The translations under genes were made by a program, and so were the position numbers. From an uncultured Victivallis sp. (GTDB lineage: Bacteria; Verrucomicrobiota; Lentisphaeria; Victivallales; Victivallaceae): 64,000 nt of DNA. The number at the start of each line of letters is the position of its first letter. Within the stretch, counting starts at the first letter, position 1. Location: NCBI GenBank assembly GCA_944389815.1, contig CALXNS010000007.1, positions 1 to 64,000 of the forward strand, in the 5' to 3' direction. Of the stretch, positions 3,678 to 26,752 are shown piece after piece. The notes below the pieces were generated by a model that was not told the origin of the DNA, did not search any database, and saw nothing but the letters and a program-made list of their open reading frames with translations.

Positions 3678-6407
3678 ATGAAGAAAAAAATTTTGATTGC
3701 CACATTGATGCTGCTGTCGACGGCTGTACTGCTGCCGGCCGCCCCGGTGGAGGTTCGATGCGCGGTGCCCGATCCGGCGATTCCGGTCGGCCGCACAGAA
3801 ACAGCTCCGGTTATCGACGGGGTGCTCGAAGACGCTGTCTGGGAAAACGCGCCGGAGTGCCCGTTGCAGCTGGTGCGTTCAAAAACGCCGCCCTCCGGCG
3901 ACCGGCGTCCGGAATATCCGACCCGGGTCCGAATGGTGGCGGACGATGAATTCCTCTATCTCGGCGTGGAGGCGGTCAATCCGGAATCGGGGCGAGGTGC
4001 GCCCGGCGCGGAGGTGTGGGATGCGGATACGGTTGAATTTTTCTCCGACAACAGCGTCAATGCGATTTCGAGCAATTACCAGATGCTCATATTGAATCGG
4101 TTCGGTGAGCTTTATCTCTCATATCGCGGCGGAGACATCCCGCTCAACCGGCTCGACCGCGCGACGGTCCGCACCGCGGTGCGGACCGGAGACGGGAAGT
4201 GGTGCGCCGAGATCGCGATTCCACGTAACTCTCTCGGATTGAATGGTTCCACGGATTTTCTTCTCGGACAGATTGGAAGAAGCAATCCGGATGCGGGGGA
4301 GGTGAGCGCCGCGGGAGATCTCAATCAGACCTTCCATGAAGCGTTTCGTTTTGTCCGGTTTCATTTTGCGCGGTCGGCCGTTTCGTTTGAACTTCCGCAC
4401 GAACTGGCGATTCCGGTCGGGCAGTCCGAGCTCAATTTGACGGCGGTCAACCGGGGAACTGCACCGCTTCGCGTGACGGCGTGGTGTGAATTTGCCGGGC
4501 GGACGGCTGTGCCGGAACAGTTTGAATTCGAACTTCCGCCGGGGCGTTCCGAACTGAAGCTTCCAATCACGCTTACGGCGGAGGACAGCGCGTTCACGCT
4601 GCACGTTGCCGATGAAAACGGAAAAATATTGTTCACCTCGCTGCCGTGCCGTTTCCCGAAACGCGCGCTTTCTCTGCGATTGCGGGAGGTGGAGGCGTTC
4701 TTCGCGCGGGCGCCGGAACACCCCCGGCTGGCGGAATTGGCGGAAAAATTCCGCACGGTACGCGACGACTGGACGCAACTGGAGGCGTTTCTCGACGCGC
4801 ATGAAGCGGAGCTTGCCAGGTTTCGTCTGGCGGTGGATTCCGGCCGACCGGAGCTTCTGGAGGGGAATTTCTGCATTTACGCGCTCGATTCGATGGAAAA
4901 GGTTGCTTCGGGGGCGATCATTCCGCCTGCGCGGCGGATCGCATCGGAGATCGTGCTCGACGGCACTCCGGGCGGCGTGGCGAATTTTCAGCTGGCGGTC
5001 GTGCCCTTCGATCGCCCGGTGCGGGATCTCCGCCCGGTGCGGTACACCTTTCACGGGAAAATTCCGGAAGCGTCCCTGAAGGTGCGGCGCGAAAAGGAGA
5101 TCAACGTCGGCGACGGAATTCTCGTGCCGGATCCGCTTTCCGAAGAACTGGAAACGAATCTTGCGCCGGAAGAGAATTCGGTGATCTATTATGTTTCGTG
5201 CGAGATTCCCCGAGAATTGGCGATGGCGGAGGAACGCGAATGCCGCGGCGAGATTGTTTTCGCCGATGACTCGGGTTGCAGAATTGCCATGCCGATCCGG
5301 TTGCGGATCCGCAACTTCGTTCTGCCGGAGAGTATGCCGACGCTGTCGCTGGTCAATTACGAACCGTTCATGGCCGCCGGTGACTGGCAACGTCCACCGG
5401 AGGAGATCGGGCGGGAGTTGCGCGCGATCAGTTGTCACTACGGGCTTTATCCCATTCGTTCGGTGGCGCTGCCGGGGGATCTCGACCGTTACCAGGTCGC
5501 GCTCGAACCGGAGTGGCGGCAGCTGGCCGGGGATTCCGGTTTCATCTTCGCCGGAGCGATGCCGTGGATCGAATGGTTTCCGCCCTATTACCTCAAGAAT
5601 CCGAATCGGAAATATCCGACCGCGAAAGCGTATTTCGAACACCTGATCGACGGTTACTGCGAAGTGGCGCGGCAGTTGAAGGATGCCGGACGGCTCGATG
5701 AAGGGTATGCATATTACGATGAGATCGGCATCGGTCAGGATGAGGTGCGCGAAATCCTCATGGAGATGAAGCGCCGTTCCGGATTGAAGCTGATTACCTG
5801 TTTCGACAAACCGTTCGAGGGGAGCGCATATCTGGATTATTACGCCGGTCTGGTCGATTTCTACATCTTCAACAACTCCTACTTCTCGGATCCGGCGCTG
5901 CTGGAGAAGATTGCGTCGCTTCAGGCGGAGGGAAAAAAGATCGGCTGGTATTTCAATGTCAGCGCCCCCGGCGCGCCGACCACCTTCAACATGATCGACG
6001 TCCCGGGCGCCGTGCAGCGTTTCCATTATTGGAAACTCTATCAGTTCGGGGTTGATGCGACGCTGTACTGGGGATTGAACCATTTCGGCGGGCTCGATCG
6101 CACGACGGAACCGTGGAAGGCGTCGATGCGCGGCAATGGTTTCCTCGTTTATCCGGAGAACGGGAAGGTCATTCCGTCACTCCGGCTCGAATTGATCCGA
6201 GAGGGAATCGAAGACCTCGCCCATTTCCGTCTGGCGGAACGTCTGGCGAAGGAGAATCCGGATCATCCCGCAGCGGCGAAAATTCTTGAATTATTGAAGC
6301 TGGAGTGGTCGGGACCGATTTCGCAGGCCGACGTGACTGCGGAGCAGCTTCGGAAATTCCGCGCGGAACTGGATGACGCGCTGGAAATTCTCTGGGAGGA
6401 GCGTTGA
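3678..6407 (+). CDS. Secreted CBM9-like / DUF4091 glycoside hydrolase
   Basis: A 909-residue protein starting with a signal peptide (MKKKILIATLMLLSTAVLLPA). Residues about 30-230 look like a family-9 carbohydrate-binding domain: PVIDGVLEDAVWENAP near its start, then a tryptophan/aspartate-rich beta-sandwich pattern. The C-terminal half is a DUF4091 barrel with the candidate catalytic pair Asp681-Glu682 in YYDEIG. It is clearly paralogous to the protein upstream from the FDKP and KKIGWYFN motifs onward, but the N-terminal binding module differs. This suggests duplication of the catalytic half with different targeting. It sits in the same orientation, 55 bases downstream, and its stop is almost contiguous with the next gene, so the cluster is probably cotranscribed. 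Confidence 0.8.
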   Translation: MKKKILIATLMLLSTAVLLPAAPVEVRCAVPDPAIPVGRTETAPVIDGVLEDAVWENAPECPLQLVRSKTPPSGDRRPEYPTRVRMVADDEFLYLGVEAVNPESGRGAPGAEVWDADTVEFFSDNSVNAISSNYQMLILNRFGELYLSYRGGDIPLNRLDRATVRTAVRTGDGKWCAEIAIPRNSLGLNGSTDFLLGQIGRSNPDAGEVSAAGDLNQTFHEAFRFVRFHFARSAVSFELPHELAIPVGQSELNLTAVNRGTAPLRVTAWCEFAGRTAVPEQFEFELPPGRSELKLPITLTAEDSAFTLHVADENGKILFTSLPCRFPKRALSLRLREVEAFFARAPEHPRLAELAEKFRTVRDDWTQLEAFLDAHEAELARFRLAVDSGRPELLEGNFCIYALDSMEKVASGAIIPPARRIASEIVLDGTPGGVANFQLAVVPFDRPVRDLRPVRYTFHGKIPEASLKVRREKEINVGDGILVPDPLSEELETNLAPEENSVIYYVSCEIPRELAMAEERECRGEIVFADDSGCRIAMPIRLRIRNFVLPESMPTLSLVNYEPFMAAGDWQRPPEEIGRELRAISCHYGLYPIRSVALPGDLDRYQVALEPEWRQLAGDSGFIFAGAMPWIEWFPPYYLKNPNRKYPTAKAYFEHLIDGYCEVARQLKDAGRLDEGYAYYDEIGIGQDEVREILMEMKRRSGLKLITCFDKPFEGSAYLDYYAGLVDFYIFNNSYFSDPALLEKIASLQAEGKKIGWYFNVSAPGAPTTFNMIDVPGAVQRFHYWKLYQFGVDATLYWGLNHFGGLDRTTEPWKASMRGNGFLVYPENGKVIPSLRLELIREGIEDLAHFRLAERLAKENPDHPAAAKILELLKLEWSGPISQADVTAEQLRKFRAELDDALEILWEER

Positions 6408-6412
6408 ATCTT

Positions 6413-8338
6413 ATGGTGCTGGAATCGGGGACATTTTCCGTCGGATGCAATTACTGGGCCAGTCACGCCGGGTGTTTCATGTGGCGCAACTGGGATGCAT
6501 CCGTGGTTGAATCGGATCTGGAGCGGTTGGAAAAAATCGGCGTGAAGATGCTGCGGATATTTCCATTGTGGCCGGATTTCCAGCCGCTGGTAGTGTTGTG
6601 GGGGCAGGGCGGTGTGCCGCGCGCATTGGCCCGGCGCGATGATGAACCATTGGCATCGGACGGTTCGACCGTCGAACCGGAAATGCTTCTCCGTCTCCGT
6701 TTCGTCTGCGACTGCGCAGCCCGGCACGGCATGAAATTGATCGTTTCGCTGGTGACGGGCTGGATGTCGGGACGGCTTTTCGTACCGGCGGCATTTGAGG
6801 AACGTAACCTTCTGACCGATCCTGAGGTGGTATTTTACGAGACGCGCCTCGTGCGTGAAATCGTCTCATTTCTTGCCGATCACGAAGCGGTTGTCATCTG
6901 GGAACCGGGCAATGAATGCAACTGCATGGCGGAGTGTTCGCGTCCGGCTGCCCGGCTCTGGCTGGAAACGATCGTCGGAGCGATTCGCCTGGCGGACTCT
7001 TCCCGTCCGGTCGCGGCGGGAATGCATGGATTGACGCCGGCGGCGGCGGATTCGCTGACGCCGGAGGTCAAATGGCGGATCGGGGATGTGGGCGCGGCGT
7101 GCGATCTGCTTACGACGCACCCTTATCCCTTGTTCACTCCTCATGCGGCGACGGATCGGATCGGTTCGTTCAAGAGTCTTTTTCATGCGACGGCGGAGAG
7201 CAGGTTTTACGCGGATCTGAGCGGGAAGGGATGTTTTGTGGAAGAGCTGGGCACTCTTTCCGGCGTGACTGCGGGCGAGAAGGCCGCCGGAAAATATCTG
7301 TCTGGAACGCTGCTCAATTTATTTTTCCACGATTGCCGGGCGCTGTTGTGGTGGTGTGCGTTCGATCAGGCGCATATCGGGCGCCCGCCGTACCGCTGGT
7401 GTGCGGTCGAACGGGAACTTGGATTGTTCCGGGAGGATGGTTCACTCAAACCGGTGGGCGGGGAGCTGCGGGATTTCGAAGCATTTCGTTCGAAGCTCCC
7501 GGAGCAGGGACGTTTTCCCAGCTTCCGGCGTGACGCGGCGGTGATTCTCACATCTCCTGAGGCGGCGTGGAGTTCGGGCTGGGGGGCGTTTCTGCTGGCG
7601 AAGCAGGCTCATTTCGATGTGGAATTCTGCTATGCCGATCAGCCGCTGCCGGAATATGATTTATATATTGTGCCGTCGGTGGATGGGTGCGGCGGCATCA
7701 CGCCGGAACTTTTCAATCGATTGCTCCGGCGTGCGGAAGAAGGTGCGACAATCTTTATATCTTCCACCGGGGGGCCGTTGTCGCCGTTTGAAACGGCGTT
7801 CGGAGTGGAATCCGACGGGTATGACACGCCTGCCGATGGGATAACGCAGGTGAAGTTCGGGTCTGAGGAGCTGTCGTTTCACGACGTGGTGCGTCAACGT
7901 CTTCTGCCGACGGATGCGGTCGTCGCGACGGGGAACGACGATGGAGGTACCCCCTTCTTCTTCCGGCGGAGAGTCGGTGCGGGAGAATTGTGTTATTTCG
8001 CATTTCCATTGGAGAGGGAGGTTGCGACCATGCCCGGCGCCTGTGAACAGGGATATTACCGCATTTACGAGTCGGTCGCGGAGAAGGTGCTTTCGCAACG
8101 GCCGATTACGGTTGCTGCGCCGCACGTGTCCGTAACCATTCATCCGGCGGGGGAGAATCGCATGTTCGCCGCATTCGTCAATAACGGCCGAAGTACGGAA
8201 ATCGTTACGCCGCAGCTGCGGAACGCCCGGATCGTCGGCATTTTCCCGGCGGAACGGAAAAACGAAGTTGAACTCCAGCCCGGCCAATGGCGCGTTTTCG
8301 AGCTTGTCGCCGGTGATGAAGAGTCCAGAGAGGTGTGA
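6413..8338 (+). CDS. GH5-like (clan A) glycoside hydrolase, cytoplasmic
   Basis: A 641-residue protein without a signal peptide. The first 370 residues form a cellulase-type barrel: conserved start (GCNYWASHAGCFMWRNW), acid/base candidate Glu168 in WEPGNEC, and a nucleophile candidate at Glu277/Glu278 in FVEELG. The remainder resembles the glutamine-amidotransferase-like and beta-sandwich domains seen in some beta-galactosidase/mannosidase relatives. ATG 6413 was chosen over an in-frame TTG at 6404 because GGGAGGAG lies at 6394-6401. The start is 5 bases past the previous stop, so translational coupling is likely. Being cytoplasmic, it probably cleaves imported oligosaccharides delivered by the adjacent symporter. 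The exact substrate is unknown. Confidence 0.75.
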   Translation: MVLESGTFSVGCNYWASHAGCFMWRNWDASVVESDLERLEKIGVKMLRIFPLWPDFQPLVVLWGQGGVPRALARRDDEPLASDGSTVEPEMLLRLRFVCDCAARHGMKLIVSLVTGWMSGRLFVPAAFEERNLLTDPEVVFYETRLVREIVSFLADHEAVVIWEPGNECNCMAECSRPAARLWLETIVGAIRLADSSRPVAAGMHGLTPAAADSLTPEVKWRIGDVGAACDLLTTHPYPLFTPHAATDRIGSFKSLFHATAESRFYADLSGKGCFVEELGTLSGVTAGEKAAGKYLSGTLLNLFFHDCRALLWWCAFDQAHIGRPPYRWCAVERELGLFREDGSLKPVGGELRDFEAFRSKLPEQGRFPSFRRDAAVILTSPEAAWSSGWGAFLLAKQAHFDVEFCYADQPLPEYDLYIVPSVDGCGGITPELFNRLLRRAEEGATIFISSTGGPLSPFETAFGVESDGYDTPADGITQVKFGSEELSFHDVVRQRLLPTDAVVATGNDDGGTPFFFRRRVGAGELCYFAFPLEREVATMPGACEQGYYRIYESVAEKVLSQRPITVAAPHVSVTIHPAGENRMFAAFVNNGRSTEIVTPQLRNARIVGIFPAERKNEVELQPGQWRVFELVAGDEESREV

Positions 8339-18542: not shown

Positions 18543-19853
18543 TCAGAACCGGTCATGCCGTTCCGGAGCGTCGCTGTCGAAGGGGCGTCCCATCGTCTCA
18601 CGCATGCGCAGCGAATATTTCAAGACGACATACGAAAAGAATGAGAGCGTCAGGAATACCGCCAGATAGGAGTCGCGCGGATAAATTCTGATCCCTCCTG
18701 ATTGTTCCGGCGGATAAAGATTCAGCAGAAATCCGACCGCGTTGCCGAATATCGCCACCGCAAGATAAAAACTGAAATTCATGAAACAGACCGCCGTTCC
18801 GGCCAGTTCGGGTGGATTGGTCTCGTGAAGCAGCGGAATCGTAATGGACGAGGTGCTCGCCGTCAATGCGAGGAGACAGAAGAGCCCGGCAATCATCCCC
18901 GCGCATCTGAGGTCGAATGCCAGCAGGAGTGTCACCAGCGTGAACACGACGGCGCAGACGATCCCGGCCGCTTGACAGAAGATTCGACGGCGATTTCCAG
19001 TCAGGCGGCTCAGCAGCGCGAAGAGCACACAGGAGAGTGCCGAAATCGCTCCCATCAGCGAAAGAATCCACGCTGCCGGTTCGGATTCGAAATGGCAGAA
19101 ATCCTCCAGAAATTTTTTCCCGATCACCGTCTGAAGAACATAATAAAGTCCGAAATTGATTCCGCTGAAGAGAAAGAGTTCCCGGTTATGGCGCCGCGCC
19201 AGCACCCGCCTGAAGGTAGTGAAAACCCCGGAAATCCGGATGGATGAAGTGGTTTCATCTCCCGTTCCGGCAACGAGAAAGCATAGATAACACCCGACCG
19301 AAAGTGCGGCAATGAGTTTAAGCAACGACTGCCAGCCGAGAAGGTGAACTCCGGCGACGAAGGGCGCGTTGGCCACGATTCCCCCCGCGTAACCGGCCAT
19401 GATGGCCAGGGAGATTGCAATCGTATAATTTTTCCGGCAGCTCCGGATGATTTCATCAATCAGCGAGAGATAAATCGCGCTGGCGCCCAACCCGGTCAGC
19501 CCGCGGCTGAAATAGAGCCAGAACGGGCTCGCAGAACAGGGAAAAAGCAGTGAACCGGCACAGAAAAGCAATCCGCCTGCGGCGATCACCCGTCGCCCGC
19601 CGTAACGATTGATCAGTACGCCGATCGTCAACTGATTCAGCGCGTAAACGTACATGAAACTCGATCCGAGAGCGGTGACGCGCGGTGCCGATAAGTGCAG
19701 ATCCGCCTGCAGTAAATCAAAGATCGCTCCGGGAATCGCGACGCGCTGGATGTTGGCGAAAAAGTAAAGCAGTGTCGCCGATACGAGGAGCAGCATCCGG
19801 CTGCAGGGCAACCGCGAAGCCGCCCCGGAACCGGAGGATATGGCGTGGTTCAT
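18543..19853 (-). CDS. Major facilitator superfamily transporter
   Basis: A 436-residue polytopic protein with about twelve hydrophobic segments. The loop after segment 2 reads VLINRYGGRRV, matching the MFS motif A region (G-x-x-x-D-R-x-G-R-R) in degenerate form. It is the last gene of a leftward operon of oxidoreductases (start 18 bases after the previous stop), so it probably imports the substrate of that pathway or exports a product. Substrate not identifiable. Confidence 0.88.
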   Translation of the reverse strand: MNHAISSGSGAASRLPCSRMLLLVSATLLYFFANIQRVAIPGAIFDLLQADLHLSAPRVTALGSSFMYVYALNQLTIGVLINRYGGRRVIAAGGLLFCAGSLLFPCSASPFWLYFSRGLTGLGASAIYLSLIDEIIRSCRKNYTIAISLAIMAGYAGGIVANAPFVAGVHLLGWQSLLKLIAALSVGCYLCFLVAGTGDETTSSIRISGVFTTFRRVLARRHNRELFLFSGINFGLYYVLQTVIGKKFLEDFCHFESEPAAWILSLMGAISALSCVLFALLSRLTGNRRRIFCQAAGIVCAVVFTLVTLLLAFDLRCAGMIAGLFCLLALTASTSSITIPLLHETNPPELAGTAVCFMNFSFYLAVAIFGNAVGFLLNLYPPEQSGGIRIYPRDSYLAVFLTLSFFSYVVLKYSLRMRETMGRPFDSDAPERHDRF

Positions 19854-19871: not shown

Positions 19872-20837
19872 TCAGTTCCGTATCTGCAAAACGACCTTGC
19901 CGATATTCTTTCCGCCAGTCAGAATCGCGTGGGCTTCCTCTGCCCGGGTGATCGGTACGATGGCGTGAATAACCGGTCGGATCCTGCCGGATTCGAGCGC
20001 CGGCCAGATTTTTTCGCGCAGTTCGGAAAGAATGCGCGCCTTCATCGCCGCCGGACGGCTGCGCAATGTGCTGCCGATCAACCGGATTCCCCGCTTCAGG
20101 ATCGGTCGGAGCGCGATTTCGGCGTGTTCGCCGCCGAGGGTTGCGATCAGCACCCAGCGTCCGCCGGGAGCAAGTTTTTCGATATTCCGCCCGAGATCGG
20201 CGCCGCCGACGCAGTCGAGGACGACGTCGACCGGATTGGCGTCGAGCACTTTCCCGAGATCGTCATGGTGCCGGTCGACGACGATATCCGCACCGAGGCG
20301 ACGAACCATCGCCGCCTTTTCCGCGGAGCCCACGGTCGTTATCACTCTTGCCCCGAGGAATTTCGCCATCTGGATTGCCGCAGTTCCAAGTCCGCTTGCC
20401 CCGGCATGAATGAGTACGGTTTCTCCGGGACGCAGGTCTGCTTCAATGACGAGGTTCAGATAGGTGGTTGCGAACGCTTCGGGCAGCGCGGCCGCCTCCT
20501 CCATCGCGTATCCCGACGGGATCGGGAGCAGCATCGCCGGATCAACTGCGACCTTCTCCGCGTAACCACCGCCGCCGAGCAGCGCAACGACCCGGTCGCC
20601 GATATGCCACGACCCGTGGTAATTGTTTCCGATTTCGGTTATTACGCCGGCGACTTCAAGCCCCATCCATTCCGGGGCGCCGGGCGGCGGCGGATATTTG
20701 CCTGCCCGCTGCAGCAGGTCGGCCCGGTTCAGCGCCGCGGCATGGATTTCGATCAGAACCTCGCCGGGAGCCGGAACCGGATCGGGAACTTCACTCCAGA
20801 CAAGTCGTTTTTGTTCATCAACTTTAATGACATGCAT
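19872..20837 (-). CDS. NAD(P)H quinone oxidoreductase, PIG3 family (zinc-free MDR)
   Basis: A 321-residue medium-chain dehydrogenase/reductase with the N-terminal GroES-like half (NRADLLQRAGKYPPPPG is typical of the PIG3/TP53I3 group) and a C-terminal Rossmann half with AGASGLGTAAIQMAK. The zinc ligands of alcohol dehydrogenases are absent, as expected for this group, which reduces quinones or enones with NADPH. It lies 4 bases downstream of a Gfo/Idh/MocA gene in the leftward operon. In this context it may reduce an unsaturated sugar-derived intermediate, but that is only inference. Confidence 0.88.
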   Translation of the reverse strand: MHVIKVDEQKRLVWSEVPDPVPAPGEVLIEIHAAALNRADLLQRAGKYPPPPGAPEWMGLEVAGVITEIGNNYHGSWHIGDRVVALLGGGGYAEKVAVDPAMLLPIPSGYAMEEAAALPEAFATTYLNLVIEADLRPGETVLIHAGASGLGTAAIQMAKFLGARVITTVGSAEKAAMVRRLGADIVVDRHHDDLGKVLDANPVDVVLDCVGGADLGRNIEKLAPGGRWVLIATLGGEHAEIALRPILKRGIRLIGSTLRSRPAAMKARILSELREKIWPALESGRIRPVIHAIVPITRAEEAHAILTGGKNIGKVVLQIRN

Positions 20838-20841
20838 CGCT

Positions 20842-21975
20842 TCAATCCTCCAGTGGGTGTTTGCGGTCGGAAAGTGGAAAACGCAGAGTCCCTCCCGCCA
20901 GTTGCGAGGCGTAGATCCCCTGAATCATTTCCTGTACCAGGCGGGCGTCTGCGGCCGAGGCGAGCGGCGGGCGGTCTTCGGTGATTGCCTGCAGAAGATC
21001 CCAGGCCGCGAACCGGTTGTTGTCAACGAAATATTTCATGTAACGACACTTTGCGTAATCGATCGGCTCCGCGCCGGGAATCGTCCACTCCTCCTGCAGC
21101 GGAACTTTTTCAAAATGCGCCTCGTCTTCCGGCGGAAACGGCGAATGCGTGATCCGCAGGAAACGTTCGCCGTCATCGTAACGCATCGCGAGTGCGCCTT
21201 CGCTTCCGGCCACGGTGATTCCCATTCGCACCTGCTTGCCCTGGAAGAGATTTCGGCGGCTTTCGAAGAGCCCGTTGATCCCGCCGGGAAAGCGGAAGAA
21301 GGCGAAAATATCGTCTCCCGCCGCCGGTCCGATCGGTTCGCTCGTCGGCGTCCGGTCGGTGCGTTGCAGCGGGCGCCCGGCGGTGTAAACATGGCCCGTC
21401 ACGGTTTCCGGCGTGCCGAAAAGATAACAGCCGAGGTCAAGAATGTGCGTGCCGAGCACCATCAAATCTTCGCCCCCGCCGCGTTCATCTTCCTTGCCGC
21501 GGCCGTAGAAGGTCAGCGGCCTGCCGATGGCTCCGGATTCGATCAATTTTTTCATCGTCCGGAAGATCAGCGAGTAACGACCGAGGTGGGCAATGGCGAT
21601 TTTGATCCGGCCGGCGGTTGCCAGTGCGACGATTCGATCGGCGGTTTCCAGATCGGCCGCCATCGGTTTTTCGCAGAGTATGTGGCAGCCGTGTGCGGCG
21701 GCGCATTCGATAACTTCGAGATGATCTCCCGGTTCTCGGGAACCAAGAACGACAATGTCGAGCTCTTCCCGATCCAGCATTTCCCGCCAGTTTTGATAGT
21801 GTCGTGCCGCTCCAGCCTCATTCATGCGTTCTTCGATGCCGTCGAGGCGGGAATCCGCCAGAGCGGCGATTTCGACGCCCGGAAGACCGCGGAAGGCCAG
21901 GTGCGTTCCGTGGCTGCCGCGTCCGTGACCTGCGGTGTCGAAGATGATGCCGACTTTCCAGGGCGTTTTCATCAT
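20842..21975 (-). CDS. Gfo/Idh/MocA family oxidoreductase
   Basis: A 377-residue protein with an N-terminal NAD(P)-binding fold of unusual spacing (GIIFDTAGHGRGSHG), the family's EKP motif in ILCEKPMAAD and a C-terminal alpha/beta substrate domain with GTHILDLGCYL at the position of the catalytic histidine helix. Members oxidise or epimerise sugar hydroxyls, commonly through 3-keto intermediates. The ATG overlaps the previous stop by four bases. A second family member opens the operon, suggesting two successive redox steps on one sugar. Confidence 0.87.
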   Translation of the reverse strand: MMKTPWKVGIIFDTAGHGRGSHGTHLAFRGLPGVEIAALADSRLDGIEERMNEAGAARHYQNWREMLDREELDIVVLGSREPGDHLEVIECAAAHGCHILCEKPMAADLETADRIVALATAGRIKIAIAHLGRYSLIFRTMKKLIESGAIGRPLTFYGRGKEDERGGGEDLMVLGTHILDLGCYLFGTPETVTGHVYTAGRPLQRTDRTPTSEPIGPAAGDDIFAFFRFPGGINGLFESRRNLFQGKQVRMGITVAGSEGALAMRYDDGERFLRITHSPFPPEDEAHFEKVPLQEEWTIPGAEPIDYAKCRYMKYFVDNNRFAAWDLLQAITEDRPPLASAADARLVQEMIQGIYASQLAGGTLRFPLSDRKHPLED

Positions 21976-22988
21976 GAATTCCTTCCCGGATTCATCGCCG
22001 CAAGATAGGCGTCCATGGCGGTGTTGACCGGCCAGACCGTATCCTTCGGACAGCGCGAAATTTCCAGTTTCAAACCGTCATGCAGCGGCATGAGGTCTTT
22101 CGCATTTATGCCCAGCGTGGAGAGGATTTTGTTGTTGTCGGTGATCCGGGTGAAGAGCCGGGCGTATTCGAGCTGCCAGCGCGGGCTTTTCTCATAGGGA
22201 TCCGGACAGAGGATGCGCAAATAATCCTCCTTGTCAACCCAGACCGCTTCGAGGTTGCAGATATCCTTGTAGTAGTCGGCGATTTCGCCCCAGGAGTGAT
22301 GTTCTCCGGTCGCGACGTTGAAGTCATCGCCGAGCGCTTTTTCGCAGAAGAGCAACCCCGCGAGCATCCGGGCGACGTCTCCTCCCCAGCTCAACGTCGC
22401 CTGCCGATTCCGGGCCTGTTCCGGGACGACGACTTTCTTTCCGGCGAAAGCGCGCCCGACCGTATTGGCCGCCTCCAGCGTCACAAGCTGATAACGCATC
22501 AATGAATAGGTCGTCGCCGGGCGGACGATCGTCCAGTTCCGGCGTGGAGAACTCCGCAGAATTCTCTCTCCCCGGGCCTTGTAGATGCAGTAATCATCCG
22601 AATTCCGGAGCAGGGGATCCTTCGTCGTGTCGATCAGCTGCGGCGAACTTTCCCTGACCGGGTGTTCCAGATCATCGTAGACCCGGCAGCTGGAGAGAAA
22701 TATATAGTGCTCCGTATGATCCAGCGCCTGCGGCAGATACCAGGCAAGTTCACAGGTGGTGTAAGTGAGGAAATCGACGATTCCGTCGTAACCGCCTTTC
22801 AAAAGTTCGCGGTAGACGTTCCGTTCCTTCGCATCGGCTTGAATATAGTTGATTCCGGGAAGTTCCTGCACTGGTTTGTCGAGGGCGACCGCGTCAATCC
22901 GGTATCCGGATGGAAGCAGTTGCGGAAGAAGATATTGTCCCATGGCGCCGGTGGCGCCGAGAACCAGAACTTTCTTGTTGGAATTCAT
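21972..22988 (-). CDS. NAD-dependent epimerase/dehydratase family protein
   Basis: A 338-residue extended short-chain dehydrogenase with the nucleotide motif GATGAMG near the N-terminus and the catalytic Tyr-x3-Lys in YCIYKARGE. Family members act on nucleotide sugars or free sugar acids. It shares four-base stop/start overlaps with both neighbours, so it is part of a tightly coupled operon. The substrate is not determinable from sequence. Confidence 0.85.
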   Translation of the reverse strand: MNSNKKVLVLGATGAMGQYLLPQLLPSGYRIDAVALDKPVQELPGINYIQADAKERNVYRELLKGGYDGIVDFLTYTTCELAWYLPQALDHTEHYIFLSSCRVYDDLEHPVRESSPQLIDTTKDPLLRNSDDYCIYKARGERILRSSPRRNWTIVRPATTYSLMRYQLVTLEAANTVGRAFAGKKVVVPEQARNRQATLSWGGDVARMLAGLLFCEKALGDDFNVATGEHHSWGEIADYYKDICNLEAVWVDKEDYLRILCPDPYEKSPRWQLEYARLFTRITDNNKILSTLGINAKDLMPLHDGLKLEISRCPKDTVWPVNTAMDAYLAAMNPGRNS

Positions 22989-23791
22989 TGTTTTTTCTCC
23001 GGTTGGATTGAGTTGATTGCTGAGATTTGTTTTTCATTCCGGCTGTGAGTGTGCACGCCGAGGACGCGTCCGCCGTCGATGGTGTGGTTTTCGCCGGTGA
23101 TGAAACTGGAATCGTCCGAAGCCAGAAACGCCGCCAGTGCCGCGATTTCCCGAGGTTCTCCGGAACGTCCCAGCCAGGTGCCCCGATGGGGAATCGCCGT
23201 CTGGCCTGTGATCATCCCCGGCGAAATGCAGTTGACATTGATGTTGTACTGTCCTACTTCAAGTGCCAGTGCCCGGGTCAGGGAGAGGATTCCGCCCTTG
23301 GCTGCGGCATAATCCACCCGGTCGAAGAGTCCCTTTTCCGCTGCGACGGAAGACATGTTGATGATTTTTCCGTATCTGCGTTGAATCATCTGTTTGAGCA
23401 ACGCGTGGATACAACTGAGTGTTCCATTCAAATTGAGGTCTATGATCCGGCGCCAGATTTCTTCGGTTGTGTTTTCGAAGCGGGAGAGCTGATGGAACAA
23501 CCCCGCGCTTCCCCCGGCATTGTTTATTAGAATCTCAACCGAACCGAAATTCCGGAGTGCCGTTTCCGCCATCAACCGGACCTCTTCGCTCCGGGTCACA
23601 TCCATCCGGCAGGGGAGGGCGCGTCCCCCGACGGAACGGATTGTCGCCGCCGCTTTTTCGGCGTTTTCACTGCTGAGATCCGCGCAGACGACGGCCGCGC
23701 CTTCCGCCGCAAGGCGCGAACAGATTGCCAGGCCGATCCTGCCGCCCGCGCCGGTAACCACGGCGGTTTTCCCTTTGAGTCTCATTTCCAT
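22985..23791 (-). CDS. SDR family oxidoreductase (catalytic residues intact)
   Basis: A 268-residue classical short-chain dehydrogenase with TGAGGRIG (cofactor), NNAGG, catalytic Ser in NMSSVA, and the Tyr-x3-Lys pair in DYAAAKGG. It resembles sugar/polyol dehydrogenases and 3-oxoacyl reductases; the operon context favours a sugar or sugar acid. ATG at 23791 or 23785 are both possible; AAGGAAAA lies just upstream. It overlaps the epimerase-like gene by four bases and follows a related SDR gene that has lost the catalytic pair. Confidence 0.88.
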   Translation of the reverse strand: MEMRLKGKTAVVTGAGGRIGLAICSRLAAEGAAVVCADLSSENAEKAAATIRSVGGRALPCRMDVTRSEEVRLMAETALRNFGSVEILINNAGGSAGLFHQLSRFENTTEEIWRRIIDLNLNGTLSCIHALLKQMIQRRYGKIINMSSVAAEKGLFDRVDYAAAKGGILSLTRALALEVGQYNINVNCISPGMITGQTAIPHRGTWLGRSGEPREIAALAAFLASDDSSFITGENHTIDGGRVLGVHTHSRNEKQISAINSIQPEKKQ

Positions 23792-23797
23792 TTTTCC

Positions 23798-24553
23798 TTA
23801 CTCCTCCTTCGGCCCGAGGATGCAGCCGCCGTCGATGATGTAACTCTGGCCGGTGATGTAACCGGCCTCCTCTGAACAGAGAAAACAGACCAGTTTCGCA
23901 ACCTCCTCCGGCGTTCCGGTGCGACCGAATACACTGCCGCCGATGACGGAGTCCGGATCGGATTCCGATCGGATGGCGCCCGTGGCAATGGTGTTGACGC
24001 AGATGTTGTACGCACCGTAATCCATCGCCAGAGTCCGGCACAGGGCAATGATTCCGCCCTCTGCCGCCGAGCGAATCGGCGCGCCCTGCAATCCGGAAAT
24101 TCCCGCCACCGACACCAGATTGACGATTCTGCCCGTCTGTCGCTCGACCATCGACGGCAGGACATCGCGAATGGTCGCAATGGTTCCCAGCAGAAGAGCA
24201 TCAAGGCGGGAAACCCATTGCGTCGGTTCCGATTCCGTGAATTTTCCGCCGGATTCGGCGGAATGGAGATTCCCTGGTGCGTTGTTGACGAGAATATCGA
24301 TTGGACCGAATGTTTTCGCCGCACTCTGCGTCATTTGCCGGAGTTGATTGACATCGGTCGGGTCGGCGGGGAGCGCAATCGCTTCACCGCCGGCGTCACC
24401 GACTGCCGCAGCGATGCGCCGCGCTTCTTCGAATACGGGGGCGGTTACTGCGACGCGCGCTCCGTATGAGGCGAGCATGAGAACTGTCGCCCGGCCGATC
24501 TCGTCTCCCGCTCCGGTTACGAGGGCATTTTTTCCCTGCCATTGATTTTGCAT
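23798..24553 (-). CDS. SDR family protein lacking the Tyr/Lys catalytic pair
   Basis: A 251-residue SDR-fold protein with a good cofactor motif (TGAGDEIG), NNAP, and a serine in VSVAGISG. At the catalytic site, where the neighbouring paralogue has Tyr-AAA-Lys, it reads Arg161-SAA-Glu165 (APIRSAAEGG). Both catalytic residues are replaced, while the rest of the fold, including the GG-I helix, is preserved and the frame is intact. It may be a non-catalytic binding or partner subunit for the adjacent SDR, or use different chemistry. It lies 6 bases upstream of the active paralogue in the same operon. Confidence 0.85.
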   Translation of the reverse strand: MQNQWQGKNALVTGAGDEIGRATVLMLASYGARVAVTAPVFEEARRIAAAVGDAGGEAIALPADPTDVNQLRQMTQSAAKTFGPIDILVNNAPGNLHSAESGGKFTESEPTQWVSRLDALLLGTIATIRDVLPSMVERQTGRIVNLVSVAGISGLQGAPIRSAAEGGIIALCRTLAMDYGAYNICVNTIATGAIRSESDPDSVIGGSVFGRTGTPEEVAKLVCFLCSEEAGYITGQSYIIDGGCILGPKEE

Positions 24554-24568
24554 GATTCTTTTCCTCTC

Positions 24569-25582
24569 TTACCGCAGAACGCCTGAAGCGTGCAGAACTG
24601 CTTCCTGGACAATAAGTTCATGGGTGATCGGATAAGGATTTTCCATCTCGTTGCGGATGATTTTCGCAAATTCGATCAACTGATCGTCGTGGCGGCCGTT
24701 CATCGTCCCGACGTTGACGATGTGGGTTCCGGCTTCGAACTGCGCATTCCCTTCGAGCAGCGTCAGGCGCAGTTCGAGCGGATCGATTCGGAACCGGTCC
24801 GCCGGCGGTTCCAGCGGGCAGATTTCAATCGAACCCATCGTTCCGCAGACGATCAGTCGGCGATGTTTCATTCCTTCCACTTCGGTTACGCCGGTGCGGA
24901 CCGTGGCGACGGCGCGCGGATATTCGAGAACCGTTACTCCGGTGTCGTAGAGGTTGTCGTTGCGCGTTTTGGTCAGGTAGGGCGTCACCCGGAGCGGGCG
25001 GCCGAGAAGCGTGACGACCAGGTCGATCATGTGGCAGGCGAAGATGTAGACTGCGCCGCCGCGGAACTGCGCGAGCCAGCGGCGATAGGCTTCATCATGA
25101 CCGTCGTAACGGTTCATTACTGCGTGTACTTCGAAAATCTCTCCCAGCCAGCCGTTTCTGACCGCATCGAAACAGAATTTGATCGCCGGATTGTTGCGGT
25201 ACATGTAGCCGAGCTGGATGGTGAGATGTTTGCGGTGGAATTCATGGAGGAGTTCGCAAAACTGTCCGAAATCTTCGCCGGCAGGTTTGTCCATGTGAAC
25301 GTGAAGGTTCCGTTCAACGCACAGCTGAGCTGTCCTGACCAGCTCGGAAACATCGGTTTCGACCGTAACCGCGTCCAGATCGGGGATGTTGAAAAGCTCC
25401 TCCATCGAGAGGCGGGGCAATCCCCGGTAAGCCTCACGATCGCCGCGCTGTTTCCACCAGGATTCGTCCGGCTCGACGATGCCGACGACTTCAAAATGCG
25501 AGGAGAGGTGTCGCAATGACTCCATCGTGTCGGAGGCGTGATTGTGACCGATGCCGATTTGTCCGATTTTGATCTTCCGCAT
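24569..25582 (-). CDS. Gfo/Idh/MocA family oxidoreductase (first gene of operon)
   Basis: A 337-residue protein: N-terminal GQIGIGHNHAS cofactor loop, DKP (HMDKPAG) in place of the more common EKP, and FRGGAVYIFACHMIDLV with the H-x2-D pair of the family's catalytic helix. ATG 25582 was chosen because AAGGAAAA precedes it and the Rossmann fold begins immediately; in-frame upstream sequence is AT-rich and not protein-like. It opens the seven-gene leftward operon, divergent from a LacI regulator, so it probably catalyses an early oxidation of the inducing sugar. Confidence 0.88.
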   Translation of the reverse strand: MRKIKIGQIGIGHNHASDTMESLRHLSSHFEVVGIVEPDESWWKQRGDREAYRGLPRLSMEELFNIPDLDAVTVETDVSELVRTAQLCVERNLHVHMDKPAGEDFGQFCELLHEFHRKHLTIQLGYMYRNNPAIKFCFDAVRNGWLGEIFEVHAVMNRYDGHDEAYRRWLAQFRGGAVYIFACHMIDLVVTLLGRPLRVTPYLTKTRNDNLYDTGVTVLEYPRAVATVRTGVTEVEGMKHRRLIVCGTMGSIEICPLEPPADRFRIDPLELRLTLLEGNAQFEAGTHIVNVGTMNGRHDDQLIEFAKIIRNEMENPYPITHELIVQEAVLHASGVLR

Positions 25583-25616
25583 GAATATTTTCCTTTTTTT
25601 GGTGTTTGCAAGGAAT

Positions 25617-25644
25617 ATTTTAACAACGGAAAAAATATTTACAA
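25617..25644 (-). promoter_or_regulatory. Predicted promoter of the oxidoreductase operon
   Basis: Minus-strand TTGTAA (25644-25639), a 16-base spacer and TAAAAT (25622-25617), about 35 bases upstream of the first ATG, in an AT-rich divergent region facing the LacI gene. Confidence 0.55.
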
Positions 25645-25682
25645 GAGAAAAGGGAACGATGTTTTGTAAAAGAAGTTGCAAA

Positions 25683-25726
25683 ATTCATTTGTTTTCAGAA
25701 AAAACATCAATATATTGCAAATGAAT
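25683..25726. promoter_or_regulatory. Inverted repeat in the divergent LacI/operon region
   Basis: ATTCATTTG (25683-25691) is mirrored by CAAATGAAT (25718-25726) with 26 bases between. Each arm lies close to a TTGCAAA (25676-25682 and 25715-25721). It could hold two half-sites or two operators for the adjacent LacI-family regulator; it lacks the central CG typical of many LacI operators. Confidence 0.4.
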
Positions 25727-25783
25727 CAATTTTAAATCATACGCGACAGGCGCCGCTCCGGCGGAGCCGATGGAACATGAACG

Positions 25784-26752
25784 ATGAAAATACAGGAAAT
25801 TGCGAAGGAAGCCGGCGTTTCGACGGCGACGGTGTCGCGCGTATTCAGCAATCACCCGAATATCCGCGAAGCGCTGCGGGAACGGGTTCTGTCGGTGGCG
25901 AGGCGGCACGGTTATCATCCCCGGCAGTCGCAGAAGCGGCAGAATGTGGTGATTGTGAGTCCGTTCCGGGAGATATACCCGATCCGGAGTTATGTGGAAA
26001 TGGTGATTTCCGAACTGACGCTGGAACTTTCCGCGCGGGGCTACCGCATTGAAATGCTGCCGCAGGATAATCTCGGCTGTCTTGACCGTATTCGTTTCTG
26101 CGGCGTGGTCTCGATCGGCGTTGATGCGGAGAAGTTCGGGAACTGGGAGGCGTGTTTTGCCGCGCCGCTGATCGTCGTCGATCGCGACATACCTGCCGGC
26201 GGCGTCGGAGGAGAGATCTATTCCGTCCGGTCGGATGAAGTTCAGGGAATGAATCTCGGCATTGATCATCTGGCGCGGAATAATTGCCGCAAAATCGGAG
26301 CCATCATCTACGGCGAAGCGGGCATCGGAAATGCGGAAACCCGGCGGAACGCCGTACTTCATGCGTTGCAGCGGAACGGGTTGCCGTTTTCGAATCAGCT
26401 GGTGCGGTTTGCGCTGGCGGACACCTATGTTGAAGAGATCGGAAAACTTTTGAGATTCGACATCGACGGTCTCTTCTGTCCGGGGGGGAATGCCGGGATT
26501 ATTGCCGCTTACGCGCTCTCGCTCTACAATCGCCGCATTCCGGAGGATATCTCGCTGATCGCCTCTGAGCGTTCGATGTTTTCCCGTTACGGCATCCCGC
26601 CGCAGACGACGATTTCCCAGGATTACGCGGCGCAGGCGGCCGCGGTGGCGGATCTGCTCGATGCGCGGTTGCGCGGGGAACCGTTTCCGCACAACACGGT
26701 GATTCCCTACAAGTTGATCTTGCGCGACAGCGTTGCCTTTCATACATCGTAA
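25784..26752 (+). CDS. LacI family transcriptional regulator
   Basis: A 322-residue regulator with the LacI helix-turn-helix at the very N-terminus (MKIQEIAKEAGVSTATVSRVF, then HPNIREALRERV and a hinge near residue 47) and a periplasmic-binding-like effector domain (about residues 55-320). It is transcribed divergently from the seven-gene oxidoreductase operon across a 201-base AT-rich region, so it very likely controls that operon in response to a sugar. A short hairpin follows the gene. Confidence 0.92.
   Translation: MKIQEIAKEAGVSTATVSRVFSNHPNIREALRERVLSVARRHGYHPRQSQKRQNVVIVSPFREIYPIRSYVEMVISELTLELSARGYRIEMLPQDNLGCLDRIRFCGVVSIGVDAEKFGNWEACFAAPLIVVDRDIPAGGVGGEIYSVRSDEVQGMNLGIDHLARNNCRKIGAIIYGEAGIGNAETRRNAVLHALQRNGLPFSNQLVRFALADTYVEEIGKLLRFDIDGLFCPGGNAGIIAAYALSLYNRRIPEDISLIASERSMFSRYGIPPQTTISQDYAAQAAAVADLLDARLRGEPFPHNTVIPYKLILRDSVAFHTS

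Follow-up and report, generated by a model that had tools for sequence, protein, structure and literature searches.

The minus-strand gene at positions 23798..24553 of the window (the whole stretch of 64,000 nucleotides that was analysed, from an uncultured Victivallis sp.) encodes a protein, here called PSDR, that carries Arg and Glu in place of the catalytic Tyr and Lys of an SDR enzyme. PSDR is probably a catalytically dead SDR subunit that assembles with the product of the adjacent gene, the active-looking twin SDR2. An earlier note on this DNA raised the idea of a non-catalytic protein maintained next to an active paralogue, and this idea gained support from the Arg/Glu pair in six out of six genomes, from purifying selection, from fixed adjacency and from the apparent joint exchange of the two genes. 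The gene and the residues concerned are:

23798..24553, minus strand: PSDR, a classical-SDR-fold pseudoenzyme of 251 aa with R161-x3-E165 (from translation, Pfam and alignments)
24071..24073, minus strand: Arg161 codon (CGC), at the site of the catalytic Tyr; invariant in 6/6 orthologues
24059..24061, minus strand: Glu165 codon (GAG), at the site of the catalytic Lys; invariant in 6/6, as GAG or GAA
24110..24112, minus strand: Ser148 codon, the catalytic Ser, kept according to the alignment
24194..24196, minus strand: Leu120, where an SDR has its active-site Asn; orthologues have Leu or Val
24437..24442, minus strand: Ala38-Pro39, closing beta-2; the twin SDR2 has Asp-Leu here, with the NAD ribose-binding Asp; the changes D>A38 and L>P39 are fixed in 6/6
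23981..23983, minus strand: Thr191, in the post-beta-6 PG motif, whose Pro it replaces; orthologues have Ser/Thr

The reading frame comprises 251 codons and a stop, and the plus strand of the same interval has stops. Over its whole length PSDR matched PF13561 (144.5 bits against a cut-off of 27, E=5e-42) and PF00106 (136.7 bits, E=9e-40), and these adh_short / adh_short_C2 matches identify it as a member of the classical SDR superfamily. The monomer model, built from 12 sequences, had a mean pLDDT of 72.8 and a pTM of 0.78, and its best PDB matches were FabG- and hydroxysteroid-dehydrogenase-like SDRs, with TM values of 0.71-0.80 among the matches listed. When PSDR was aligned with SDR2 and with the non-orthologous SDRs compared, Arg161 and Glu165 fell on the Tyr and Lys of the Tyr-x3-Lys motif that marks an active classical SDR, which bore out, coordinates included, the replacement described in the earlier note for this minus-strand gene. 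Among 12 other SDR matches in the same genome, Tyr was found in all and Lys in 11, with Arg in the remaining one. Orthologues with Tyr/Lys, which the earlier note had named as the sign of a local mutation, were looked for, and all five other orthologues carry Arg/Glu; a local mutation or sequencing error as the source of the pair was thus rejected, six genomes being in agreement.

The further claim that the cofactor motif and the serine are preserved held in part. Ser148 is invariant across the PSDR orthologues and the T-G...I-G frame of the glycine-rich motif is kept with its last Gly, but the middle Gly of TGxxxGxG is replaced by Glu and the acidic beta-2 residue used for NAD(H) by Ala38, the latter in 6/6. 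The middle Gly is also absent from the active neighbour SDR2, which has Arg there, and the motif reads TGAENEIG/SGAENEIG in the orthologues L033/L034. Losses not described in the earlier note comprise, besides the beta-2 Asp (Ala38), the active-site Asn of helix alpha-4/alpha-E (Leu120, with Leu or Val among the orthologues) and the Pro of the PG motif, now TG or SG. That PSDR is an ordinary redox SDR in which proton transfer and cofactor binding fall to other residues is very unlikely: the strong Pfam SDR scores and the retained Ser would agree with it, but several separate cofactor and catalytic features are lost in every orthologue, and there is no Lys or Tyr within the R161-E165 turn.

The five orthologues are 69-77% identical to PSDR, and R161 and E165 are present in 6/6 when the window gene is included; the Glu165 codon varies synonymously while the residue is kept. 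The next SDR below them shows ~43% identity, and among the matches listed from 100 relatives, 137 order genomes and 388 phylum genomes no other orthologue was found between 69% and about 43%. A search of the genome contigs returned the same carriers only. Four of the six carriers belong to the window's own genus (the window genome counted) and two to another family of the order.

PSDR is under purifying selection, though less constrained than its neighbours. Its dN/dS was 0.14-0.33, mostly 0.19-0.30, compared with 0.06-0.14 for SDR2 and about 0.05-0.14 for GfoA and Epi, two further genes of the operon. A decaying duplicate without function would be in keeping with amino-acid sites that evolve ~2 times as fast as those of SDR2 and with a stem branch of 0.97 in the gene tree. 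We nevertheless consider decay extremely improbable, since the frame is intact in 6/6 genomes, dN/dS lies well below 1, 150 out of 251 residues are invariant and so is the C-terminal GPKEE.

In classical SDR tetramers, alpha-E/alpha-F and alpha-G/beta-7 form the subunit interfaces. Regional constraint was determined as PSDR substitutions relative to those of SDR2 over the same genomes. The ratio was 3.1x in the nucleotide-binding (Rossmann) half, 7.8x in loop 94-109 and 2.5x in helix alpha-E, and it was 1.0x in beta-5 with the old active-site loop, 1.4x in alpha-F and 1.3x in the C-terminal alpha-G/beta-7 part. Therefore constraint has been lifted from the cofactor half of PSDR but maintained on most of the interface parts and on the remodelled pocket, in which S148, Q156, A158, P159, R161 and E165 are invariant. 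The relaxation of alpha-E, which is also an interface element, speaks against a partner subunit, and the invariance of the pocket would also fit a ligand-binding or a new catalytic site. A ligand-binding role and new chemistry had been offered as possibilities in the earlier note; both have weaker support, given the relaxation of the cofactor half.

It is unlikely that PSDR is an SDR-fold enzyme with a new, cofactor-independent chemistry (an isomerase, dehydratase or lactonase, say), in which Ser148, Arg161 and Glu165 would sit in the old substrate pocket and the nicotinamide site would be emptied. Such an enzyme would account for the invariant S148, Q156, P159, R161 and E165 and for an old active-site loop as conserved as in SDR2, and NAD-free SDR-derived enzymes have a precedent in the halohydrin dehalogenases, which have the SDR fold, a lost nicotinamide site and a catalytic triad altered to S-x12-Y-x3-R (PMC4989007). 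However, these enzymes keep Tyr and have Arg for Lys, whereas PSDR has S148-x12-R161-x3-E165 and lacks their signature. Moreover, the remainder of the site is lined by loop 94-109 and the Rossmann half, both of which vary strongly.

PSDR directly precedes an intact SDR2 in all six genomes, as part of a conserved operon. Around PSDR the window contains:

25784..26752, plus strand: LacI-family regulator, divergent
24569..25582, minus strand: GfoA, a Gfo/Idh/MocA oxidoreductase; ATG 25582 is preferred over TTG 25681 as the start
23792..23800, minus strand: PSDR stop and 6-nt gap, with AAGGA (ribosome-binding-site-like) for SDR2; the junction is short in all six genomes
22985..23791, minus strand: SDR2, the active-looking twin of 268 aa, with S, Y-x3-K, N and the beta-2 Asp present
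21972..22988, minus strand: Epi, of the NAD-dependent epimerase/dehydratase family (extended SDR)
20842..21975, minus strand: GfoB, a Gfo/Idh/MocA oxidoreductase
19872..20837, minus strand: QOR, a PIG3-family quinone-oxidoreductase-like MDR (NCBIfam TIGR02824, 389 bits, above cut-off)
18543..19853, minus strand: MFS transporter, at the operon end

This is a sugar-type oxidoreductase operon of gut Victivallis. In the five other genomes the order is LacI (divergent), zinc-type MDR, GfoA, PSDR, SDR2, Epi, GfoB, QOR and MFS, the zinc-type MDR family being confirmed in three of these five carriers. In the window (25582-25784) the zinc-type MDR gene is missing between LacI and GfoA and the leader in front is conserved, apparently a clean deletion. 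An Amidohydro_2 (lactonase-like) gene lies between GfoB and QOR in one orthologous locus (L032, 9719-10495), with a gap of the same size in L035, and may hint at a lactone step in the pathway. The N-terminus of GfoB is without the usual GxGxxG (GIIFDT...GSHGTHLAF) and its orthologues share the form DT...GxHxTHLxF, so that judged by sequence GfoB may be another altered-cofactor oxidoreductase of the operon. Its nearest PDB relative, a scyllo-inositol/L-glucose dehydrogenase, offers a weak lead to the pathway. Epi is strongly conserved (78-82%), and at E<=0.001 the PDB contained no sequence relative of it. An antisense ORF that covers both SDR genes in L033 was dropped, being absent from the ORF lists of L031 and L032. 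A literature search on the PSDR operon returned nothing.

The operon also bears on the idea that PSDR is a sensor or regulator, still with a nucleotide or else a pathway metabolite as its ligand, and is not necessarily tetrameric with SDR2. The retained SDR fold and the survival of the NNA segment and of the first and last Gly of the glycine-rich motif would suit such a role. We give it a slim chance, as the beta-2 Asp is lost in 6/6, the middle glycines are variable and the operon already has its LacI-type regulator.

Related operons differ in the number of their SDR genes. In a syntenic operon of a congener (G005, L072), a single SDR stands between GfoA and Epi; it is intact, 56% identical to SDR2 and 42% to PSDR, and the Epi of that operon is 79% identical. 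More distant operons of this kind have two or three SDR genes in tandem, each of which encodes Tyr-x3-Lys; three such genes lie between GfoA and GfoB in L070 (G099:C111, 1557-3969). In the tree the stem leading to PSDR was long (0.97), and PSDR was placed near other long branches and apart from SDR2. The AU test rejected an exclusive clade of PSDR and SDR2 (p=0.007) and did not reject a clade of PSDR, SDR2 and the L072 SDR (p=0.109). A recent in-place duplication of SDR2 was rejected as the origin of PSDR, as the tree separates the two and by the same AU result (p=0.007). Either duplication within the operon or descent from an older paralogue may have given rise to PSDR.

PSDR and SDR2 showed the lowest dS among the compared operon genes in 15 out of 15 genome pairs; in one example it was 0.06/0.06 for PSDR/SDR2 against 0.72-1.10 for the other operon genes. 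The low-divergence block is sharply set off from the rest of the operon and has the following coordinates:

6001-7526: L032 and L035
6001-7530: L033 and L034
22985-24553: the window

Between G069 and G118, which belong to two species, PSDR and SDR2 are 96-99% identical as one block and the other operon genes 73-87%, although the compared genomes are metagenome-assembled and an assembly artefact could mimic a block of this kind. The edges of the block lie near the GfoA end and the Epi beginning, and the surroundings outside the operon were not alignable. Between G002 and G003 the block reached 98-99% against about 90-95%, with other nearby stretches equally similar. Between pairs, the ratio of flanking to cassette dS ranged over about 1.5 to 14. 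Such a spread is explained less well by a fixed constraint than by exchanges that took place at different times. With this variation, and with dN falling as well in the closest pairs, constraint on synonymous sites is disfavoured as the cause of the low dS.

Hence it appears that PSDR and SDR2 form a single cassette in inheritance and in exchange from species to species. Taken at face value, a dead and an active gene that travel together are expected if their proteins work together, yet the joint exchange could reflect linkage alone. Constant pairing and apparent exchange with SDR2 are more than new chemistry by itself would require of PSDR. A combined form, in which PSDR would use its Arg/Glu pair for a new reaction that needs no cofactor, as a close partner of SDR2, and the two genes would move between species as a catalytic module, we judge to be quite unlikely.

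For a dead partner subunit, the mechanism might be as follows. PSDR and SDR2 would be made from one operon in which their genes meet at a tight junction, and would probably assemble into a classical SDR tetramer of alpha2-beta2 composition. PSDR would have lost NAD(P) binding in the normal mode, and SDR2 would use NAD to oxidise or reduce an intermediate that is a polyol, a sugar or a sugar acid. The interface surfaces of PSDR, and perhaps its remodelled pocket, may stabilise SDR2 or tune its specificity. We infer the complex, its stoichiometry, the inactivity of PSDR and the SDR2 reaction, while the residue losses, their conservation, the purifying selection, the regional constraint, the fixed adjacency and the joint low divergence were observed. 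An AlphaFold model of a PSDR-SDR2 read-through fusion was of low confidence (pTM 0.50, pLDDT 58.9), with an uninformative interface.

Heterotetramers of two different classical SDR subunits are known from the human mitochondrial ketoacyl reductase HSD17B8/CBR4 (PDB 4cql, 4cqm), in which both subunits can act catalytically. The CBR4 chain was among the PDB sequence relatives; in contrast to the pair proposed for PSDR and SDR2, the human system is not one of a dead and an active subunit. A closer likeness is offered by BbsCD of anaerobic toluene degradation, described, in a title cited in PMC10818641, as a heterotetramer with inactive pseudoenzyme subunits. Both systems have adjacent SDR genes, one intact and one without catalytic machinery, the latter providing a heterotetramer subunit in BbsCD, and in our case the inactive gene adjoins the active one across species in 6/6 genomes. 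The BbsD chain (7pcs_B) is a PDB sequence relative of both PSDR and SDR2; BbsC was absent from the 60 PDB matches listed. BbsCD acts on CoA esters, whereas the putative PSDR-SDR2 complex belongs to an operon that is sugar- or polyol-like (Gfo/Idh, epimerase-family, MDR). Outside the SDRs, the AdoMetDC prozyme of Trypanosoma is a dead paralogue that complexes with the active enzyme and activates it (PMC5201418). It shares the dead-partner principle with our reading of PSDR, although the protein family is unrelated.

To our knowledge, dead paralogues as obligate partners have been described for few SDR enzymes, and SDRs are among the largest enzyme superfamilies. Dead/active SDR pairs are already known; what is new here is the evidence that the two genes are exchanged together, along with a syntenic operon that has one SDR. 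The related operons present a natural experiment, with one intact SDR in L072 and the dead/active pair in six genomes, and a comparison of the two would directly reveal the contribution of a dead subunit. Furthermore, PSDR is a reason for care in annotating a gene as an oxidoreductase by its SDR fold.
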